From contig CAINJJ010000034.1 of assembly GCA_903849645.1 (NCBI GenBank), positions 62,001-126,000 on the forward strand: a DNA stretch of 64,000 nucleotides, in the 5' to 3' direction. Origin of the DNA: an uncultured Acidobacteriaceae bacterium (lineage in GTDB: Bacteria; Acidobacteriota; Terriglobia; Terriglobales; Acidobacteriaceae). The stretch's first letter is position 1; each line of letters starts with the position of its first letter. The position numbers and the translations under genes were made by a program. Below are positions 36,595 to 44,662 of the stretch, in pieces. The notes beneath the pieces were generated by a model. It ran no database searches and was not told the origin of the DNA. It saw nothing but the letters and a program-made list of their open reading frames with translations.

Positions 36595-37707
36595 CTACTC
36601 TTCGCGGGTGTAGGTTGTGCGGCTCTTCTCCGCGTGGCGCTCCATGGCGAGTTCGATGAGCCGGGTGATGAGTTCGCGGTAGCCGATGCCGGAGGCCTGC
36701 CAGAGCTTGGGGTACATGCTGATGCTGGTGAAACCGGGCAGGGTGTTGACTTCATTGAGGTAGATGCGGCGGTGGCCCTCGGGCTCCATGAGGAAGTCGA
36801 CGCGGGCCAGTCCCGAGAGGTCGCAGGCCTGGAAGGCCAGCACGGCCATCTGCTGGATCTCTTTGGTCTGGGCGCGGGTGAGTTTGGCGGGGATGACCGG
36901 GACGGAGCCTTCGGCGAGGTACTTGGCCTCGTAGTCGTAGAACTCCTTGCCGGGGATGATCTCGCCGACAACGCTGGCCTGCGGAATGTCGTTGCCGAGG
37001 ACACCGACTTCAAGCTCCCGGGCCCTGGTCTTTTTGCCGCCCACGCCCTGCTCGACGATGATCTTGCGGTCGTATTTGGCGGCAAGGGTGATTGCGGGGC
37101 CAAGCTCGGCGCGGTCATGGGCCTTGGAGATGCCGACCGAGGAGCCGAGGTTGGCGGGCTTCACGAATACGGGGTACTTGAGCGCGAACTCGACCTGGGA
37201 GATGGCCATGCGCGGCAGCCGTTCCCATTGGGCGCGGAGGAGCGTGACGTGCTTGACGATGGGGAGTTTGGCCTGGGCGAAGAGGCGCTTCATCACGTCC
37301 TTGTCCATGCCGGCGGAGGAGCCGAGGACGCCCGAGCCGACATAGGCGATGCCGGCCAGTTCAAAGAGCCCCTGGATGGTGCCGTCCTCGCCAAAGGTGC
37401 CGTGGAGCACGGGAAAGATGACGTCGAGCGACTGGCCGCCGAGGGCCGCCTGGCTGTCGAGAGCTCCCTTGCCGCCGACGGCGAGAGAGGCCTTGCCGAC
37501 GGCGGGCTTTGCGGCGACGGAACCCTCGAGCAGGCCCACGGCCGCGCCGGCGGTGAGCCAATGCCCTGCCTTGTTGATGCCGATGGGCACCACGTCAAAC
37601 TTGCGCCGGTCAATTGCCTTCAAAATGGAGGCGGCCGAGAGGAGAGAGACTTCATGCTCCCCGCTGCGCCCGCCAAAGACTATGCCAACCCTGAGTTTTT
37701 TTGCCAT
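36595..37707 (-). CDS. ddl: D-alanine--D-alanine ligase
   Basis: This 370-residue ATP-grasp enzyme forms D-Ala-D-Ala for peptidoglycan. Visible are the N-terminal [21 protein letters not shown], the [12 protein letters not shown] substrate loop, [20 protein letters not shown] and the Mg-binding [30 protein letters not shown]. It is of the VanA/Ddl type, complete. Its ATG (37707) follows the stop codon of the PARP-like gene with no spacer (TAAATG), and no clear ribosome-binding site is present, so its translation may depend on ribosomes finishing the upstream gene. Confidence 0.96.
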
Positions 37708-38289
37708 TTATTGTTTGATCACCGATCTTGGCACGCGAAATACGGCTTTGATGCAGTCGAGATTGACGACTGCAATTTGAATGTGGGTCTTTTCAAGGAA
37801 TTTGGAACCGGTGTAGATGGCTTTCCCTTCCGTGAAGATGCCACGAACTGTATCAATTGTCTCCGCTTGGGAACCGGCACGAATCAGATGAAGGAACTTG
37901 ATGACCGCGCAATCCAAACGTCGCCTCCAGTCCTCCGGCCCATTCAGGGGAAGCAAGTTTCCTGTAGGACCAACAGTAGCTTGCAAGCTTCGGTGCGCAT
38001 CCCTCAAATTCTCGATGGAGTCTTTGGTCGTCAGGTCCAAGCATAGTCCCAAGTCAATAACAGCGCCTACGACAAATGGATCGGAGATCCCATCGTGACG
38101 CTTGAGCTTTTCCTGAGCAAACTCCATGGCGCGATGCGGATTGGACTCCCAGAAATATACCCCTGGGCCAAGCCAGTCATAGTCATTGTTGCTCGGTTTC
38201 AGCGACCTGGTTCCCGATAGCAGGCGCTCCCCGAATTCACGGTCACAGCCATGATAGGCGAGGACGAAACTGGTGGATAGGCGGTGCAC
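37708..38289 (-). CDS. PARP/ADP-ribosyltransferase-fold-like protein, candidate toxin
   Basis: This 193-residue protein has a GTG start (38289), three bases after the stop of a 67-residue basic gene. The N-terminal half has LAYHGCDREFGERLLSG (candidate His of the H-Y-E class) and DYDWLGPGVYFWESNPHRAMEFA (the G-x-G-V-Y-F loop with candidate Tyr), then DPFVVGAVIDL and a late KTHIQIAVVNL strand. In PARP-like enzymes that late strand carries a Glu; here the aligned residue appears to be Gln. The motifs suggest NAD-binding ADP-ribosyltransferase ancestry, by inference rather than proof. Its stop abuts ddl's start codon. Together with the small upstream gene it looks like a toxin-antitoxin pair. 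Confidence 0.65.
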   Translation of the reverse strand: MHRLSTSFVLAYHGCDREFGERLLSGTRSLKPSNNDYDWLGPGVYFWESNPHRAMEFAQEKLKRHDGISDPFVVGAVIDLGLCLDLTTKDSIENLRDAHRSLQATVGPTGNLLPLNGPEDWRRRLDCAVIKFLHLIRAGSQAETIDTVRGIFTEGKAIYTGSKFLEKTHIQIAVVNLDCIKAVFRVPRSVIKQ

Positions 38290-38292
38290 GGT

Positions 38293-38496
38293 TTATCGGT
38301 AGTTCTTCGTCAGCTTGCCCGTGGGTGTATAGATACCAGCTTCGACGAGAACTGCCAGAGCGTGCTCAGGAGACTGGGTTGCCTTTTTGGTAAAGGCCTT
38401 GGCTGCGCGCTTGAATTCGCGCGTGAAGCTGTCGCTACGAGGATCAAGTCTGGCAACCGTTTTTCTCTTGACGGACGCCACGACACTCTTCGCCAT
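38293..38496 (-). CDS. Small basic protein, candidate antitoxin to the PARP-like gene
   Basis: The product is 67 residues and rich in Lys/Arg: MAKSVVASVKRKTVARLDPR, then SDSFTREFKRAAKAFTKKAT, then SPEHALAVLVEAGIYTPTGK and a KNYR end. It has a GGAGG ribosome-binding site (ATG 38496) and ends three bases before the PARP-like gene. The final helix-plus-LVEAGIYxxxGKL segment resembles the C-terminus of other small partner proteins I have seen in two-gene modules, but I cannot name the family. Position, size and tight coupling suggest an antitoxin. Confidence 0.6.
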   Translation of the reverse strand: MAKSVVASVKRKTVARLDPRSDSFTREFKRAAKAFTKKATQSPEHALAVLVEAGIYTPTGKLTKNYR

Positions 38497-38583
38497 AAGT
38501 CCAGCCTCCACATCGTATCGTTCAATTGTAACCCGATTGAGGATTCCAGTGCTCCTGGTACAGACGACGGAGGCCTGAACCCG

Positions 38584-39564
38584 TCACAGGATCTTCTTCC
38601 CAAAAGCCGAGCATGCCAGTTCGACGGCCAGGTCGGCTGTGCGGTTGTGCTCGTCGATGACGGGGTTGACCTCGACGATCTCGAAGCTGAGGAGGCGGCC
38701 GTGGTCGGCGATGATCTCCATGGCGAGGTGGGCCTCGCGGTAGGTGGCGCCGCCGCGGACGGGGGTTCCCACGCCGGGGGCGTCTTCGGGGTCGATCCAG
38801 TCCATGTCGAGCGAGACGTGGTAGCCGGCGGTGCCGCGTCCGGCGGCGCGGAGGGCCTCTTCCATCACGGTTCTCATGCCCCGCTCGTCGATGTCGCGCA
38901 TGGTGTAGACCTCGGCCACTCCGGCGCGGCGGATGTTTTCGCGCTCGGCGGCGTCGATGTCGCGGACGCCGATGAGCACGGTGTTTTCAGGGGCGATCTT
39001 GGGAGCGTAGCCGAAGATGTTGCCCAGGGCGTCGGGACCGAGGCCGAGCAGGGCGGCCAGGGGCATGCCGTGGACGTTGCCGGAGGGCGAGGTGTCAGGG
39101 GTATTGATGTCAGAGTGGGCGTCGATCCAGAGCACGCCGATCTTCTGCCCCTGGCGGCGATAGAACTCGGCCACGCCGGAGACGGACCCGGCGGCCAGCG
39201 AGTGGTCGCCGCCCAGCACAAGGGGGGTCATGCCTTCTTCGAGGGTCTTGACCACGAATTCGGCGGTGCGGGTGCAGGTTTCCGCGATCTGCTTGAGGTA
39301 GTGGGCGTTTTCACTGCCGGAGGGCTGGGTTTCCGCAATCTCGACCCGGATGTTGCCGCCGTCGACGACATGATGGCCGAGGGCCTCAAGCCGGGCCTCG
39401 AGGCCGGCCACGCGCATGGCGGAGGGTCCCATGTCGACTCCGCGGCGGCTGGCGCCCATGTCGAGGGGGACGCCGATGACCCGGATATTGCGGGTGGGCA
39501 GGGATTGAGTGCCGCTATGGGGAGGAGATGCCGGGGTGGCGGATGGGTCGTTGGGACCGGGCAT
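38584..39564 (-). CDS. rocF: Arginase
   Basis: This 326-residue ureohydrolase splits arginine into ornithine and urea. The manganese-binding motifs are present: GGDHSLAAG, WIDAHSDINTPDTSPSGNVHGMP, SLDMDWIDPEDAPGVGTPV and SFEIVEVNPVIDEHNRT. The third motif is SLDMDWIDP instead of the usual SFDVDALDP, conservative at the metal ligands. An N-terminal extension of about 25 residues (PNDPSATPASPPHSGTQ) is low complexity; the true start could be a later codon. The distance of 87 bp separates it from the candidate antitoxin gene downstream. Confidence 0.92.
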   Translation of the reverse strand: MPGPNDPSATPASPPHSGTQSLPTRNIRVIGVPLDMGASRRGVDMGPSAMRVAGLEARLEALGHHVVDGGNIRVEIAETQPSGSENAHYLKQIAETCTRTAEFVVKTLEEGMTPLVLGGDHSLAAGSVSGVAEFYRRQGQKIGVLWIDAHSDINTPDTSPSGNVHGMPLAALLGLGPDALGNIFGYAPKIAPENTVLIGVRDIDAAERENIRRAGVAEVYTMRDIDERGMRTVMEEALRAAGRGTAGYHVSLDMDWIDPEDAPGVGTPVRGGATYREAHLAMEIIADHGRLLSFEIVEVNPVIDEHNRTADLAVELACSAFGKKIL

Positions 39565-39795
39565 GAAACAGGCTCCTTGCGGCCCGATAGCGGGCGCTCC
39601 CTATTAAAGCAGCCTGCGGGGTGGAGTTGTAAAACAGGCCTGGTTGCCACCGATGGGAACAAGCGGAGCCATTTTGGACTTCCATGACCCAAAATAGCCA
39701 TTTAACAAGAAAGCTCCGAGAGTAGGATGGGAACATCAAGCCTGAAGCCAATCGATTGCTGCCGCTGTGATGGGGCAGCCCGGTTATACTCTCTC

Positions 39796-39854
39796 GCGGC
39801 TTTGCCGATATTGATTTCATGGAGCCGCCGGCTTGAAGCACGGGCGGTTTTTTT
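39796..39854 (+). promoter_or_regulatory. Candidate transcription attenuator before the first diguanylate cyclase
   Basis: A terminator-like hairpin (CCGCC at 39825-39829 with GGCGG at 39843-39847, then seven T at 39848-39854) ends eleven bases before the start codon of the first cyclase gene. The upstream GCGGCT (39796-39801) is perfectly complementary to AGCCGC (39823-39828), which overlaps the left arm of the terminator, so the two pairings are mutually exclusive. TATACT at 39785-39790 is a possible -10 box. The nearest upstream gene is on the other strand, so this hairpin cannot serve as a plain 3' terminator for a plus-strand gene. Confidence 0.5.
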
Positions 39855-39864
39855 GACCCTGATG

Positions 39865-42117
39865 ATGAAGCGACTGATTCCCGTAATCGCCCTCCTGCTC
39901 GGGGGCGTTTCTGGCGCTTGGGCGTCCGCGCCCGCGCCTATGGGGTCAGTGCGCGCAGTGCGCTCGCTCACCAACGCAGAGGCAAGCCGGGGTCTGCCTG
40001 TGGCGCTTGAAGCTACGGTTACCTACTACCGCGACTACGATATCGATTTATTTGTTCAAGACGGCGATGCGGCGGTGTATGTGCTGTTCCGCGCCGGGGC
40101 CGGGCTGCTGCCTGGGGACCGTGTGCTGGTGCGGGGCAAGACGCAGGGGAGTTTCCGGCCCATCGTGGTGGGCGAGTCGGTGACGGTGCTGAGCCATGGG
40201 ACGGCTCCGAGGCCGGTTACGGCCAACGTTGCGCAACTGTTTCGCGCCCAGCTCGACTGCATGAGGGTCACGGCGCACGGGGTGGCGCGCAGCGCGGTCA
40301 TGCTGTGGAGCGCCGGCAAGCGGAATATCTACCTGCAGGTGCAAATGGACGGCGGGGAAGTGGATGCGGCGGTCAACAGCGAAGATGAGGGAGCGCTGAA
40401 GAACCTGCTGGACGCCGAGGTGGAAGTGACTGGGGTGGTGACCTCAAAATTTGACCAGAAGATGCAGCAGACCGGCGCAACGCTGGATGTGCAAAGCCTG
40501 GCGGACATAAGGACTCTCAAGCGAGCCTCGGCGGCTCCCTCGTCGCTGCCAGAGACTTCGATGGACGATGTTCTGGGCGGATATCATGTGCAGGATCAAA
40601 CGCAGCGGGTGCATGTGAAAGGGACCATCACCTACTACGATCCGGGCTCCGCGGTGGTGCTGCAGAACGGAACCAAGAGCCTCTGGCTGATCACGATGAC
40701 GGATGTGCCGCTGCGGGTGGGAGATCTTGCGGAAGCCTCCGGTTTTCCTGACGTGCGCAACGGGTATCTGGCCCTGGACCACAGCGAGATCCGGGATTCC
40801 CAGGCGTGGGCGCCGATCACCCCGCTCCCGGTGACGTGGGAGGGCATGGACTCAGGCGCCAATGCATTCAACCTGGTTTCGACCGAGGGGCAGGTGCTGA
40901 TGGAGGCCCGTGAGTCGTCCAAGGACGAATATGTGCTCATGTCCGGCGGCCATCTGTTCTCTGCGATCTATCGCCATCCGAGCGGGGCAACCGGGGTGAA
41001 GCTTCCGCCGATGAGGCAGATTCCGATCGGGTCGAGGGTTCGGGTGACGGGCATCAGCACGTTCTATAGCTCCGACCCGTTCAACGGGCCAGTGGCATCG
41101 GACCTGCTGCTGCGCTCCTTTGACGATATTGCGGTGGTTGCCGGCCCCCCGTGGTTGAGCATCGGGAACCTGGTGCGGATGGTGGTGGCGTTGCTGGTGG
41201 TGGTGCTGCTGGTGGCCGCCAGGGGTTGGACGCTGGCCAGCAAGGTGCGCCGGCAGACGGTCGCGATGGCCAGGCGCACTGAGGCAGAGGCCGAGCTGGA
41301 ACGGCGGCGCAGCCAGATTCTGGAAGAGATCAGCGGAACCAAGCCGCTGGCTGGAATTCTGGAGAGGATTACGGAGCTGGTCTCCTTCGGCTTGCAGGGT
41401 GCGCCGTGCTGGTTTGAGATCGAGGGCGGTGCGAATCTGGGGATACAGCCCGTGGCGGACCCGGGATCGAACCTGCTCGAGCTGCCCATTCCATCGCGGA
41501 CAGGCCCGCCGCTGGGGGTGATCCATGGCGCCCTGGCCGCGGGGTTGCAACCCAATGCGCTGCACACCGAGGCCCTGGCCATTGGCGCCCGGCTGGCGGC
41601 CCTGGCGATTGAGACGCGCGACCTCTACTCCGACCTGCTGCATCGCTCGGAGTTTGACCAGCTCACCGACATTCACAACCGATTCTCGCTGGAAAAGTAC
41701 CTGGATCTGCGGATTGAAGAGGCGCGCCGCACGGCTGGGATATTCGGGCTGATCTATATGGATCTGGATGACTTCAAGCAGGTGAACGACCTCTACGGCC
41801 ACCAGGTCGGAGACCTCTACCTGCAGGAACTGGCGCTGCGCATGAAGCGGCAACTGCGTTCGCACGACATGCTGGCCCGGCTGGGCGGCGACGAGTTTGC
41901 CGTGCTGGTTCCGGTGGTGAAGAGGCGGGCCGATGTGGAAGAAGTGGCCCAGCGCCTCAGCCAGTGCTTCGTCGAACCACTGGAGATTGAAGGCTATCGC
42001 CTGCAAGCCTCGGCCAGCTTCGGCATCGCGCTTTACCCGGAGGATGGCGAAAGCCGGGAGGCGCTGCTCAGCGTCTCAGACGCCGCGATGTACATTGCCA
42101 AGTATGCCAAACATTAG
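39865..42117 (+). CDS. Membrane diguanylate cyclase 1 with periplasmic OB-like sensor
   Basis: This is a 750-residue protein with a signal peptide (MKRLIPVIALLLGGVSGAWA). A periplasmic region follows (about 30-430) in which I see four repeated OB-like units, such as LEATVTYYRDYDIDLFVQDG and VHVKGTITYYDPGSAVVLQN. A transmembrane segment (about 436-457), a coiled-coil linker and a C-terminal GGDEF domain complete it. The catalytic GGDEF (674-678) is intact, the DLDDFKQVNDLYGH segment is conserved, and RSHD nine residues before GGDEF fits the inhibitory I-site RxxD. It makes c-di-GMP from two GTP. It is one of three tandem paralogues. ATG 39862 or 39865 is possible; the signal peptide favours either. 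Confidence 0.9.
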   Translation: MKRLIPVIALLLGGVSGAWASAPAPMGSVRAVRSLTNAEASRGLPVALEATVTYYRDYDIDLFVQDGDAAVYVLFRAGAGLLPGDRVLVRGKTQGSFRPIVVGESVTVLSHGTAPRPVTANVAQLFRAQLDCMRVTAHGVARSAVMLWSAGKRNIYLQVQMDGGEVDAAVNSEDEGALKNLLDAEVEVTGVVTSKFDQKMQQTGATLDVQSLADIRTLKRASAAPSSLPETSMDDVLGGYHVQDQTQRVHVKGTITYYDPGSAVVLQNGTKSLWLITMTDVPLRVGDLAEASGFPDVRNGYLALDHSEIRDSQAWAPITPLPVTWEGMDSGANAFNLVSTEGQVLMEARESSKDEYVLMSGGHLFSAIYRHPSGATGVKLPPMRQIPIGSRVRVTGISTFYSSDPFNGPVASDLLLRSFDDIAVVAGPPWLSIGNLVRMVVALLVVVLLVAARGWTLASKVRRQTVAMARRTEAEAELERRRSQILEEISGTKPLAGILERITELVSFGLQGAPCWFEIEGGANLGIQPVADPGSNLLELPIPSRTGPPLGVIHGALAAGLQPNALHTEALAIGARLAALAIETRDLYSDLLHRSEFDQLTDIHNRFSLEKYLDLRIEEARRTAGIFGLIYMDLDDFKQVNDLYGHQVGDLYLQELALRMKRQLRSHDMLARLGGDEFAVLVPVVKRRADVEEVAQRLSQCFVEPLEIEGYRLQASASFGIALYPEDGESREALLSVSDAAMYIAKYAKH

Positions 42118-42275
42118 GACGGCGGGGCCCCGGTGAGCCTGCTCATCTTCCGTTGATCCATCCGAACTCCGCAGCTCCGCATCCAACCAATGCATACAGG
42201 CCCGGATTCAAAGGCTCATTGGTTACGAATTAGGGAGAGCAGCCCTGGCGGCATAAGGTATTGTACTTTCTTTAG

Positions 42276-42287
42276 TGCTCGCGAGCA
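42276..42287. promoter_or_regulatory. 12-bp perfect palindrome upstream of cyclase 2
   Basis: TGCTCGCGAGCA (42276-42287) is a perfect palindrome about 50 bp upstream of the second cyclase start codon, in an otherwise 217-bp gap. It could be an operator; no promoter hexamers are convincing next to it. Confidence 0.35.
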
Positions 42288-42334
42288 GGAAACTGCCGGC
42301 GGATAAACTGTACCTGATTGTTTGGTGTGGCACG

Positions 42335-44662
42335 ATGAAGAAGTTGGGCCTACTCGTTGCGATCTTCATAGGATGCTTGCAGACCGCATCCGCCGCTCCT
42401 CCCGACGTTTTGACCTCTCTCCGCGCCGTCCACTCTCTCAGCAACGCACAGGCAGCCAGCCATGCGCCGGTAGCCATTGAGGCGACTGTCCTTTACTATC
42501 GCGGCTATGAGAGAACCCTGTTCATCGAGGACGAGGGGTTTTCCATCTATGCCGAGGCGCCCCCGGATGCCAAGCTGCTTCCCGGAGACCGGATTCTGGT
42601 GCGGGGAATCTCCCAGCCCAGCTTTCGGCCGTTCATCGCCGCGCAAAGCGTGACGCTGCTTCGTCACGGAGCCGTTCCGCCCGCGGTGCCGGCCACGTTT
42701 GACCAATTGATCGGCGCCGAGCGCGATTGCATGCTGGTGAAGGCGCGGGGCGTGGTCCGCGCCGCCGACGTGGTGCTCAGTTCCATGATTCACTCCTCCA
42801 AGCTGCAGATGCAGATGGAGGGAGGAAGCATTGAAGCTGTGGTGGACAACGACGATGCGGGCGCACTGAGGAGCCTGCTGGACGCGGAAGTTGAAGTGAC
42901 GGCCGTGGCTTCCGGCAGGTTCGACGGCAAGATGCAGCAGACCGGGGTAGTGCTGCACGTCAGTTCGATGGCCGACATCCTGGTTCTCCATCAGGCTGCG
43001 ACAAGTCCGTGGGCTTTGCCGGTGCTGCCAATGGACGAGGTGCTCACGGCCTACCACTCCATGGACTTCTCGAAGCGAGTTCATGTACGGGGCACCATTA
43101 CGTACTATCAGCCGGGGTCGGCGGTTGTGCTGCAGGACGGACACAAGAGCCTGTGGATCAACACCCGAACGATTGCTCCATTGGTGGTGGGCGACGAGGC
43201 AGACGCCACTGGTTTTCCAAGCGCGCAGGACGGCTTCCTCACGGTGACGGCGGGGGAGATTGCAGACACGCACCGAAGTGCACCGGTCATGGCCGAACCC
43301 CTGCAATGGCAGCAGCTCGCAACGAGCAAGCACATCTTCGACCTGGTCTCGACCGAGGGGACCGTGGTGACCGCCGTCCGTGGATCCTCGCAGGACGAGT
43401 ATGCCCTGGACGCCGGCGGCTATGCGTTCTCCGCCATCTACCGGCACCCGGAGGTTGCAGGAGTGGTGCCCCTTTCGCCGATGAAGCAGATTGCCGTCGG
43501 CTCGAGAGTGCGGGTCACCGGAATATGTGTACTCGATAGCGCGAATCCCTTTGACCGCAACGTGCCGTTCAACCTTCTGCTACGCAGTTCCGATGATCTG
43601 GCGGTTCTGGCGCGGCCTTCCTGGTTCAACATCCCTAATTTGACGCGCATCGTGGGGGCGCTCTTGCTGGGGATTGTCGCGGTGGCCGCCGGGGGGTGGA
43701 CGCTGAGGCGAAGAGTGAGGCTGCAGACCGCCCTGCTGGCAGCCGGCATGGGAGCTGAGGCCGCCTTGGAGCGCCGGCTCAGCCAGATTGAACAACGCCG
43801 CAGCCGCATCCTGGAAGACATCAATGGGACGGCACAGCTTCCTGACATTCTTGAGCAGATTGCTGGCCTATGCTCCTTCCGGCTGGGAGGCGCCGCGTGC
43901 TGGTGCGAGTTGGCCGATGGCACCCGCCTGGGGGCTTCTTCGCCGGAGCAGGGCCGTTTCCACGTCCTGCAAGAGGAGATTCCAGGCCGGTCGGGCGGCC
44001 CGCTGGGCAGGCTGTTTGCTGCTTTCGGCGAGGGGATTTTGCCCACCGCATCCGACTCCGAAGCACTTTTCCTGGGAGCGCGGCTTGCCTCCGTGGCCAT
44101 TGAGACGCGTCGGCTTTACTCCGACCTGTTGCATCGCTCCCAGTTCGACCTGCTCACTGACATTCACAACCGTTTCTCTCTCGAACAGCACCTTCAGGCG
44201 CTGGTAGCGGAGGCGCGCGGCAAGGGATTGATCTTCGGTCTTATCTATGTGGACCTCGATGGATTCAAGCAGGTCAACGACCTCTATGGGCATCGCATCG
44301 GGGATTTGTATCTGCAGGAAGTTGCTTCCCGGATGAAGCGGCAGTTGCGCACGGGCGACCTGCTGGCGCGCCTGGGCGGCGACGAGTTTGCCGCCCTGGT
44401 TCCCGTGGTGCGCAGCCGCGCCGGTGTGGAGGAGATTGCCCTGCGCATGGAGCGCTGCTTTAACGAGCCCTTGCTGCTGGAGGGCTATACCCTCCAGGGC
44501 GCGGCGAGTTTCGGGATTGCACTTTACCCGGACGACGGAAGCACTGGGGAGAGCCTGCTGCACGCGGCCGACTCCGCCATGTATATGGCCAAGTACACCA
44601 AGGCACACGGCGGGATGACCGGGTTGCATTCCGAAGCGCAGAAGGCATCCGACCCGGTCTGA
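42335..44662 (+). CDS. Membrane diguanylate cyclase 2 with periplasmic OB-like sensor
   Basis: This 775-residue paralogue of the preceding gene has the same layout. A signal peptide (MKKLGLLVAIFIGCLQTAS) is followed by four OB-like units (IEATVLYYRGYERTLFIEDE, VHVRGTITYYQPGSAVVLQD), a transmembrane helix (about 434-455) and a linker containing an extra ALERRLSQIEQRRSRILEDI coiled coil. The GGDEF domain has GGDEF at 681-685, DLDGFKQVNDLYGH, and an RTGD I-site. Sequence identity to its neighbours is highest in the cyclase domain and lower in the sensor, suggesting sensor divergence after duplication. ATG 42335 is chosen for the signal peptide. Confidence 0.9.
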   Translation: MKKLGLLVAIFIGCLQTASAAPPDVLTSLRAVHSLSNAQAASHAPVAIEATVLYYRGYERTLFIEDEGFSIYAEAPPDAKLLPGDRILVRGISQPSFRPFIAAQSVTLLRHGAVPPAVPATFDQLIGAERDCMLVKARGVVRAADVVLSSMIHSSKLQMQMEGGSIEAVVDNDDAGALRSLLDAEVEVTAVASGRFDGKMQQTGVVLHVSSMADILVLHQAATSPWALPVLPMDEVLTAYHSMDFSKRVHVRGTITYYQPGSAVVLQDGHKSLWINTRTIAPLVVGDEADATGFPSAQDGFLTVTAGEIADTHRSAPVMAEPLQWQQLATSKHIFDLVSTEGTVVTAVRGSSQDEYALDAGGYAFSAIYRHPEVAGVVPLSPMKQIAVGSRVRVTGICVLDSANPFDRNVPFNLLLRSSDDLAVLARPSWFNIPNLTRIVGALLLGIVAVAAGGWTLRRRVRLQTALLAAGMGAEAALERRLSQIEQRRSRILEDINGTAQLPDILEQIAGLCSFRLGGAACWCELADGTRLGASSPEQGRFHVLQEEIPGRSGGPLGRLFAAFGEGILPTASDSEALFLGARLASVAIETRRLYSDLLHRSQFDLLTDIHNRFSLEQHLQALVAEARGKGLIFGLIYVDLDGFKQVNDLYGHRIGDLYLQEVASRMKRQLRTGDLLARLGGDEFAALVPVVRSRAGVEEIALRMERCFNEPLLLEGYTLQGAASFGIALYPDDGSTGESLLHAADSAMYMAKYTKAHGGMTGLHSEAQKASDPV

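Follow-up and report, generated by a model that had tools for sequence, protein, structure and literature searches.

A putative ADP-ribosyltransferase toxin-antitoxin module between the arginase and ddl genes of an uncultured Acidobacteriaceae bacterium

What are two small genes doing directly ahead of ddl, the gene for D-alanine--D-alanine ligase, in a soil bacterium? The question is raised by a 64,000-nucleotide stretch of an uncultured Acidobacteriaceae bacterium (contig CAINJJ010000034.1, positions 62,001 to 126,000; hereafter the window), in which a gene for a 67-residue basic protein is followed after 3 bases by a gene for a 193-residue protein and the latter, after 0 bases (TAA then ATG), by ddl, all three on the minus strand, just as the original prediction, made from the sequence alone, had described. 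We consider it highly probable that these genes make up a type II-like toxin-antitoxin module that spreads horizontally, its toxicity and neutralisation being putative; most likely they belong to a large uncurated toxin-antitoxin-like family with an ADP-ribosyltransferase (ART) toxin, spread through many bacteria, of which this bacterium carries one copy. The module comprises two open reading frames (ORFs):

38293..38496, minus strand: putative antitoxin gene, 67 aa, basic (ATG start, ORF call)
37708..38289, minus strand: putative ADP-ribosyltransferase toxin gene, 193 aa, triad H13-Y45-Q171 (GTG start, ORF call)

A conserved and mobile pair

Both proteins have homologues and their adjacency is conserved across phyla, so the pair is more than a chance arrangement. 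Among about 5.8 billion proteins searched, 4,694 match the 193-aa protein at E <= 0.001 (the best 120 of the 4,694 being listed), and a search of genome contigs yielded 420 stretches encoding a relative, the best 80 of which were studied; a scan of genome contigs with the single 193-aa protein as query returned none. The relatives examined come from Acidobacteriota, Pseudomonadota, Myxococcota, Binatota, Vulcanimicrobiota, Nitrospinota, Thermodesulfobacteriota and Campylobacterota. Plasmids carry them (66 records, of which 35 are predicted to be conjugative), as do viral contigs (31 loci, some near-identical to one another); a phage collection gave partial matches only, in one phage (two records).

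In the 67-aa protein two helices are predicted; its C-terminal segment is conserved, as AxxxLxxxGIxTxxGxLxxxYR, and its last residues are NYR. It has 46 homologues by single-sequence search and 80 by profile, and found no match of weight in Pfam or NCBIfam (only Lambda_Bor, E 0.092); no Pfam family matches more than 4 of 98 relatives, the best E for that family being 0.032. A profile of 18 such sequences, seven of which come from the same loci and match by construction, recognises an ORF immediately preceding the toxin gene at 117 of 121 loci. In an enlarged set of loci the upstream small gene is found in 135/142 at E <= 10 and 130/142 at E <= 1e-3, its stop lying between 29 bases inside and 36 bases before the projected toxin start. 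Counted by distinct toxin sequence, the small gene is directly upstream in 125 of 132, which bears out the small-first, toxin-antitoxin-like order that had been proposed for the window. The outcome that would have told against it, homologues regularly without the small gene, was not seen.

Seven distinct toxins lack it: those of four Pseudomonas loci (L079, L082, L085, L089), the most divergent pair (L164, L166), and that of L165, where a stop interrupts the match to the toxin. The Pseudomonas loci have a different upstream ORF, which in L079 is 144 aa long and has no Pfam match of weight; near its end this ORF resembles the antitoxin helix, by eye only. In L164 and L166 the toxin is followed by a gene of ~340 aa with a helix-turn-helix (HTH) domain (HTH_3, E 1.2e-8 and 1.3e-5; the L166 gene also matches Nuc_deoxyrib_tr, E 5.2e-7) and then by an IrrE/ImmA-type gene (Peptidase_M78, E 1.3e-9 and 5.1e-7), possibly an alternative antitoxin system.

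Among 398 genomes of the bacterial family the toxin is present in 25, the small gene in 23 and both in 21, a co-occurrence with a Fisher p of 7e-29 that is too small because the genomes are related. The toxin stands alone in G246, G341, G514 and G195, the last with a sub-threshold small gene (E 0.015); the small gene stands alone in G265, where it lies 51 bases from the contig end, and in G563, where the sequence following it revealed no toxin. One of these small-gene-only genomes (locus L212) has sequence present behind the small gene: the putative antitoxin is tolerated without a toxin. Between the distance matrices of toxin and small protein the correlation is r 0.62 over 109 pairs, as against a maximum of 0.17 in 500 shuffles that do not keep phylogeny. 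GC content at third codon positions (GC3) is 61.8 and 58.8 in the small-gene pair versus 86.5 and 86.3 in arginase and ddl. This aberrant GC3, together with the patchy distribution, cross-phylum kinship and conjugative plasmids, argues for a moving type II-like toxin-antitoxin module, as do the marks of type II systems found here, namely an adjacent, co-directional small gene kept across lineages and a mobile, patchy occurrence (25/398 genomes). In the 107 flanking ORFs of the genome loci no Pfam family occurs in more than two ORFs (first 25 of 134 matched families) and PADLOC detects no concentration of defence genes, every matching family being represented by one ORF; in this sample the pair is self-contained, independent of its neighbours and not specially tied to defence genes.

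Fold, catalytic triad and nearest relatives of the putative toxin

The AlphaFold2 (AF2) model of the 193-aa protein has a mean predicted local distance difference test (pLDDT) score of 94.1 and a predicted template modelling (pTM) score of 0.89. Its structural neighbours are exotoxin A (ExoA; best Foldseek match), NatT, MbcT and ParT, and as modelled the protein adopts an ART fold, with modest match scores. The motifs on which the original prediction had based a PARP-like assignment are both present (YHG at residues 12-14, GPGVYF at 41-46), as is the late-strand Gln (Q171, in THIQIAV), and the structure check, in which a non-ART fold would have told against that assignment, returned ART-fold matches. 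The ART part of the assignment thus stands; the PARP label is too narrow, because the nearest named sequence relative is CmdT and the best Foldseek match is exotoxin A. A Pfam PARP search of the genome itself found nothing, to which we give little weight as none of 14 control genomes matched either.

Alignment of 248 sequences reveals a near-invariant H-Y-Q triad, with H13 in 244/244, Y45 in 246/247 and Q171 in 247/248; the Gln therefore belongs to the family as a whole. A clade with conserved His, Tyr and E/D/Q at the three ART motif positions, H-Y-[EDQ], is described in PMC9503650 (PubMed Central), and the residues that characterise it are found here as H13, Y45 and Q171.

The family is missing from the main protein-family databases, Pfam giving no match to this protein at E 10 and NCBIfam none at E 1; a sequence search of solved structures returned none, and a profile search of them only aminotransferases (E 0.21 or worse). 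In PHROGs, phrog_14664 matches residues 8-185 with E 9.4e-20 and is the same protein family, with no function or partner recorded. ART-PolyVal-like phage proteins share fold similarity (e.g. E 1.5e-4 to a Salmonella phage Mutine protein). The suggestion of an undescribed ART toxin-antitoxin family has held up, in that the libraries searched hold no curated name for it and the open-licence PubMed Central literature yielded no description of the two-gene family.

In PADLOC, PD-T4-9_A matches the 193-aa protein weakly (E 9.7e-5); we take PD-T4-9 to be CmdTAC and PD-T4-9_A its toxin. The PADLOC CmdT model matched 5/369 genomes, at L204-L206, which belong to the 193-aa toxin's own family (216-230 bits with its profile), and at L202 and L203, which are CmdTAC loci with a toxin, an LAA-ending antitoxin and a SecB-like protein (PF02556, E 6.6e-10 and 7e-7). 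Conversely, the L202 CmdT receives 28.3 bits from the 193-aa family profile over positions 8-68 (E 6.5e-5 per million sequences), and once the L202 and L203 CmdT sequences are added to the alignment, both share the H and Y columns with the family but not the third. Judged from this weak sequence similarity, CmdT of CmdTAC appears to be the closest known toxin, distantly related.

Both systems, the module here putatively, have an H-Y-[E,D,Q] ART and a small antitoxin of helices plus tail (PMC11618068), and the N-terminal 60 residues of the toxins align, with YH.C and GxYFW. They differ in layout, CmdTAC having three genes in the order toxin-antitoxin-chaperone whereas the module here has two with the antitoxin first; in the antitoxin, which ends in LAA in CmdTAC but in NYR here, with no CmdA similarity by phmmer; and in the SecB-like chaperone gene, none being seen here, where the neighbours in the window are arginase and ddl; the flanking-ORF count above, which covers the first 25 of 134 Pfam families, could miss a rare SecB-like neighbour. 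CmdA and CmdC of L202 and L203 gave no phmmer match in 18,821 ORFs of 121 module loci, an insensitive test.

The RES-Xre systems (NatRT, MbcTA, ParST, VPA0770/0769) also place an ART-fold toxin in a two-gene operon and are among the top structural neighbours, but their triad is R-E-S and their antitoxin of the Xre type (PMC12457610), whereas the module here has H-Y-Q and a 67-aa partner without an HTH recognised by Pfam; the divergent relatives L164 and L166 do adjoin an HTH gene. DarTG and DarT-NADAR share the adjacency of ART toxin and antitoxin, but the 67-aa partner matches no macrodomain or NADAR family in Pfam.

Predicted complex, proposed action and rival explanations

A model of antitoxin and toxin joined by read-through (pLDDT 87, pTM 0.69) places antitoxin helices at residues 24-39 and 43-52, with block mean pLDDT of 82-88 for antitoxin residues 21-50, 77 for 51-60 and 50 for 61-70. 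The toxin has a helical insert at residues 89-139, and in 23 of the 25 best covarying pairs the toxin residue lies within 94-136, either inside the two insert helices or in the stretch that separates them. Mutual information between antitoxin A53 and toxin F132 exceeds the maximum of all 8 shuffles; this covariation is a hint, not a demonstration, that the antitoxin contacts the toxin insert.

We propose that the antitoxin is made first and would bind the toxin through its helices and conserved C-terminal segment, keeping it inactive; the helices perhaps dock on the insert. Loss of the antitoxin, by proteolysis under stress or phage attack or by loss of the carrying element, would free the ART to ADP-ribosylate a host molecule with NAD+, and growth would stop. 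By analogy with CmdT, some component of the translation machinery, RNA or other, would be the most likely target. Here the module would have entered between the arginase gene and ddl, with ddl a bystander. If this is true, a family of thousands of members unseen by Pfam and NCBIfam joins the short list of ART toxin-antitoxin systems and gives CmdTAC a counterpart that lacks the chaperone; it also becomes testable what the family modifies and why Gln is retained throughout it where Glu is usual.

This account must be tempered by several observations that speak against it. The best VIA Z of the toxin model is 8.4, only slightly higher than the 7 to 8 that is usual for models lacking a clear match; TM-scores of the structural matches are 0.38-0.43 and a single Foldseek match has E <= 0.001. 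Sequence likeness to CmdT is limited to about 60 N-terminal residues, the family profile on the L203 CmdT (16.9 bits, E 0.21 per million sequences) is not significant, and at E 0.001 the PADLOC CmdT model matched none of 21 near genomes, this genome included. The complex model comes from an artificial read-through, at the pTM given above and without predicted aligned error (PAE), its antitoxin residues 61-67 and linker averaging a pLDDT of about 50, and 24 of the 25 best covarying pairs are not above the highest shuffle, a single pair exceeding it. Shared descent inflates both the co-occurrence and the distance-matrix figures, and 7/132 distinct toxins have no profile-detected partner.

A more far-reaching version of the toxin-antitoxin reading, which we put forward tentatively and rate as somewhat doubtful, holds that the family is a large undescribed class of ART toxins acting on RNA or nucleic acid, with Gln as third catalytic residue and a new, tiny antitoxin seated on the helical insert; it would be a chaperone-free sister of CmdTAC whose antitoxins have been exchanged (small in most loci, a larger partner in the four Pseudomonas cases and, on the branch that diverges most, an HTH protein together with an IrrE/ImmA-type peptidase gene). 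That the pair serves anti-phage defence, CmdTAC-like in purpose, rather than mainly stabilising a plasmid or itself, is compatible with a toxin-antitoxin module and seems to us unlikely: the distant kinship to CmdT favours it, and the 31 viral-contig relatives fit competition between phages or prophages, but no chaperone or sensor gene was found and the flanking ORFs surveyed above are without a concentration of defence genes.

Improbable, in our estimate, is a catalytically dead ART whose pair with the small protein is a binding or sensing module, e.g. for NAD or ADP-ribose. Q171 does replace the classical Glu, as the original prediction had observed in questioning activity, and no activity is known for the family; however, H13, Y45 and Q171 are fixed, which is unusual for a decaying site, and according to PMC11618068 the triad of CmdT homologues is HY-[E,D,Q], and CmdT with CmdA is no longer toxic once the CmdT Tyr is replaced by alanine. 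The presence of the Gln is confirmed; by itself it is no sign of inactivity.

The arginase-ddl junction

Four further features surround the module, all on the minus strand:

36595..37707, minus strand: ddl, D-alanine--D-alanine ligase, 370 aa, ATG start, neighbour outside the module (PF07478 E 5.7e-69, PF01820 E 8.4e-35)
38584..39564, minus strand: arginase-family gene, marks the insertion site (PF00491 E 1.5e-76, synteny)
38505..38509, minus strand: GGAGG, ribosome-binding-like, before the antitoxin ATG (candidate, read off the sequence)
38525..38530, minus strand: TACAAT, possible -10 element, in a stretch common to the window and L012 (by eye)

A scan for the promoter consensus found no match, the candidate TACAAT region included.

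In the stretches examined, the module precedes ddl for only 4/132 distinct toxins: in the window, L012 (76% toxin identity), L011/L147 (66%; one and the same sequence) and L151 (50%). Arginase precedes the module in all four, L011 being judged from its first bases. At 52 other ddl loci arginase lies upstream within the stretch examined in 26 and the toxin in none, the arginase-ddl gap without module measuring 7-236 bp in 18/26 and 358-1099 bp in 8/26. A quick tree requires at least two origins for the four ddl-adjacent cases, and in G313 (L149/L214) a 57-bp copy of the arginase 3' end comes first, then the module, then serine hydroxymethyltransferase. That the pair and ddl are a coupled regulatory unit, controlling peptidoglycan synthesis through Ddl from a functional position, is on this synteny and tree very improbable and was rejected, despite the zero-base gap in the window and the same order in L012, L011/L147 and L151; this part of the original prediction does not survive. 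In our reading the module entered at least twice at a recurrent landing place behind arginase, and ddl is a bystander.

The 57-bp direct repeat in L214 is a 93% copy of the arginase 3' end located ~1 kb further on, just before the module, with a 274-aa ORF between arginase and the copy; it looks like an insertion at the arginase 3' end. The wide arginase-ddl gaps are those of L133, L140, L141, L143, L172, L174, L194 and L195; because several of these eight contain other ORFs with no relation to the module, the junction may serve as an insertion site in general. A 603-aa open frame in L151 that would fuse toxin and ddl was considered and rejected, the toxin frame being shifted near its C-terminus, in the genome or the assembly. 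Beyond arginase, the plus strand of the window carries two similar tandem ORFs of 796 and 795 aa (39727-42117 and 42275-44662), each bearing a GGDEF domain at its C-terminus (E 1.1e-41 and 2.9e-39).
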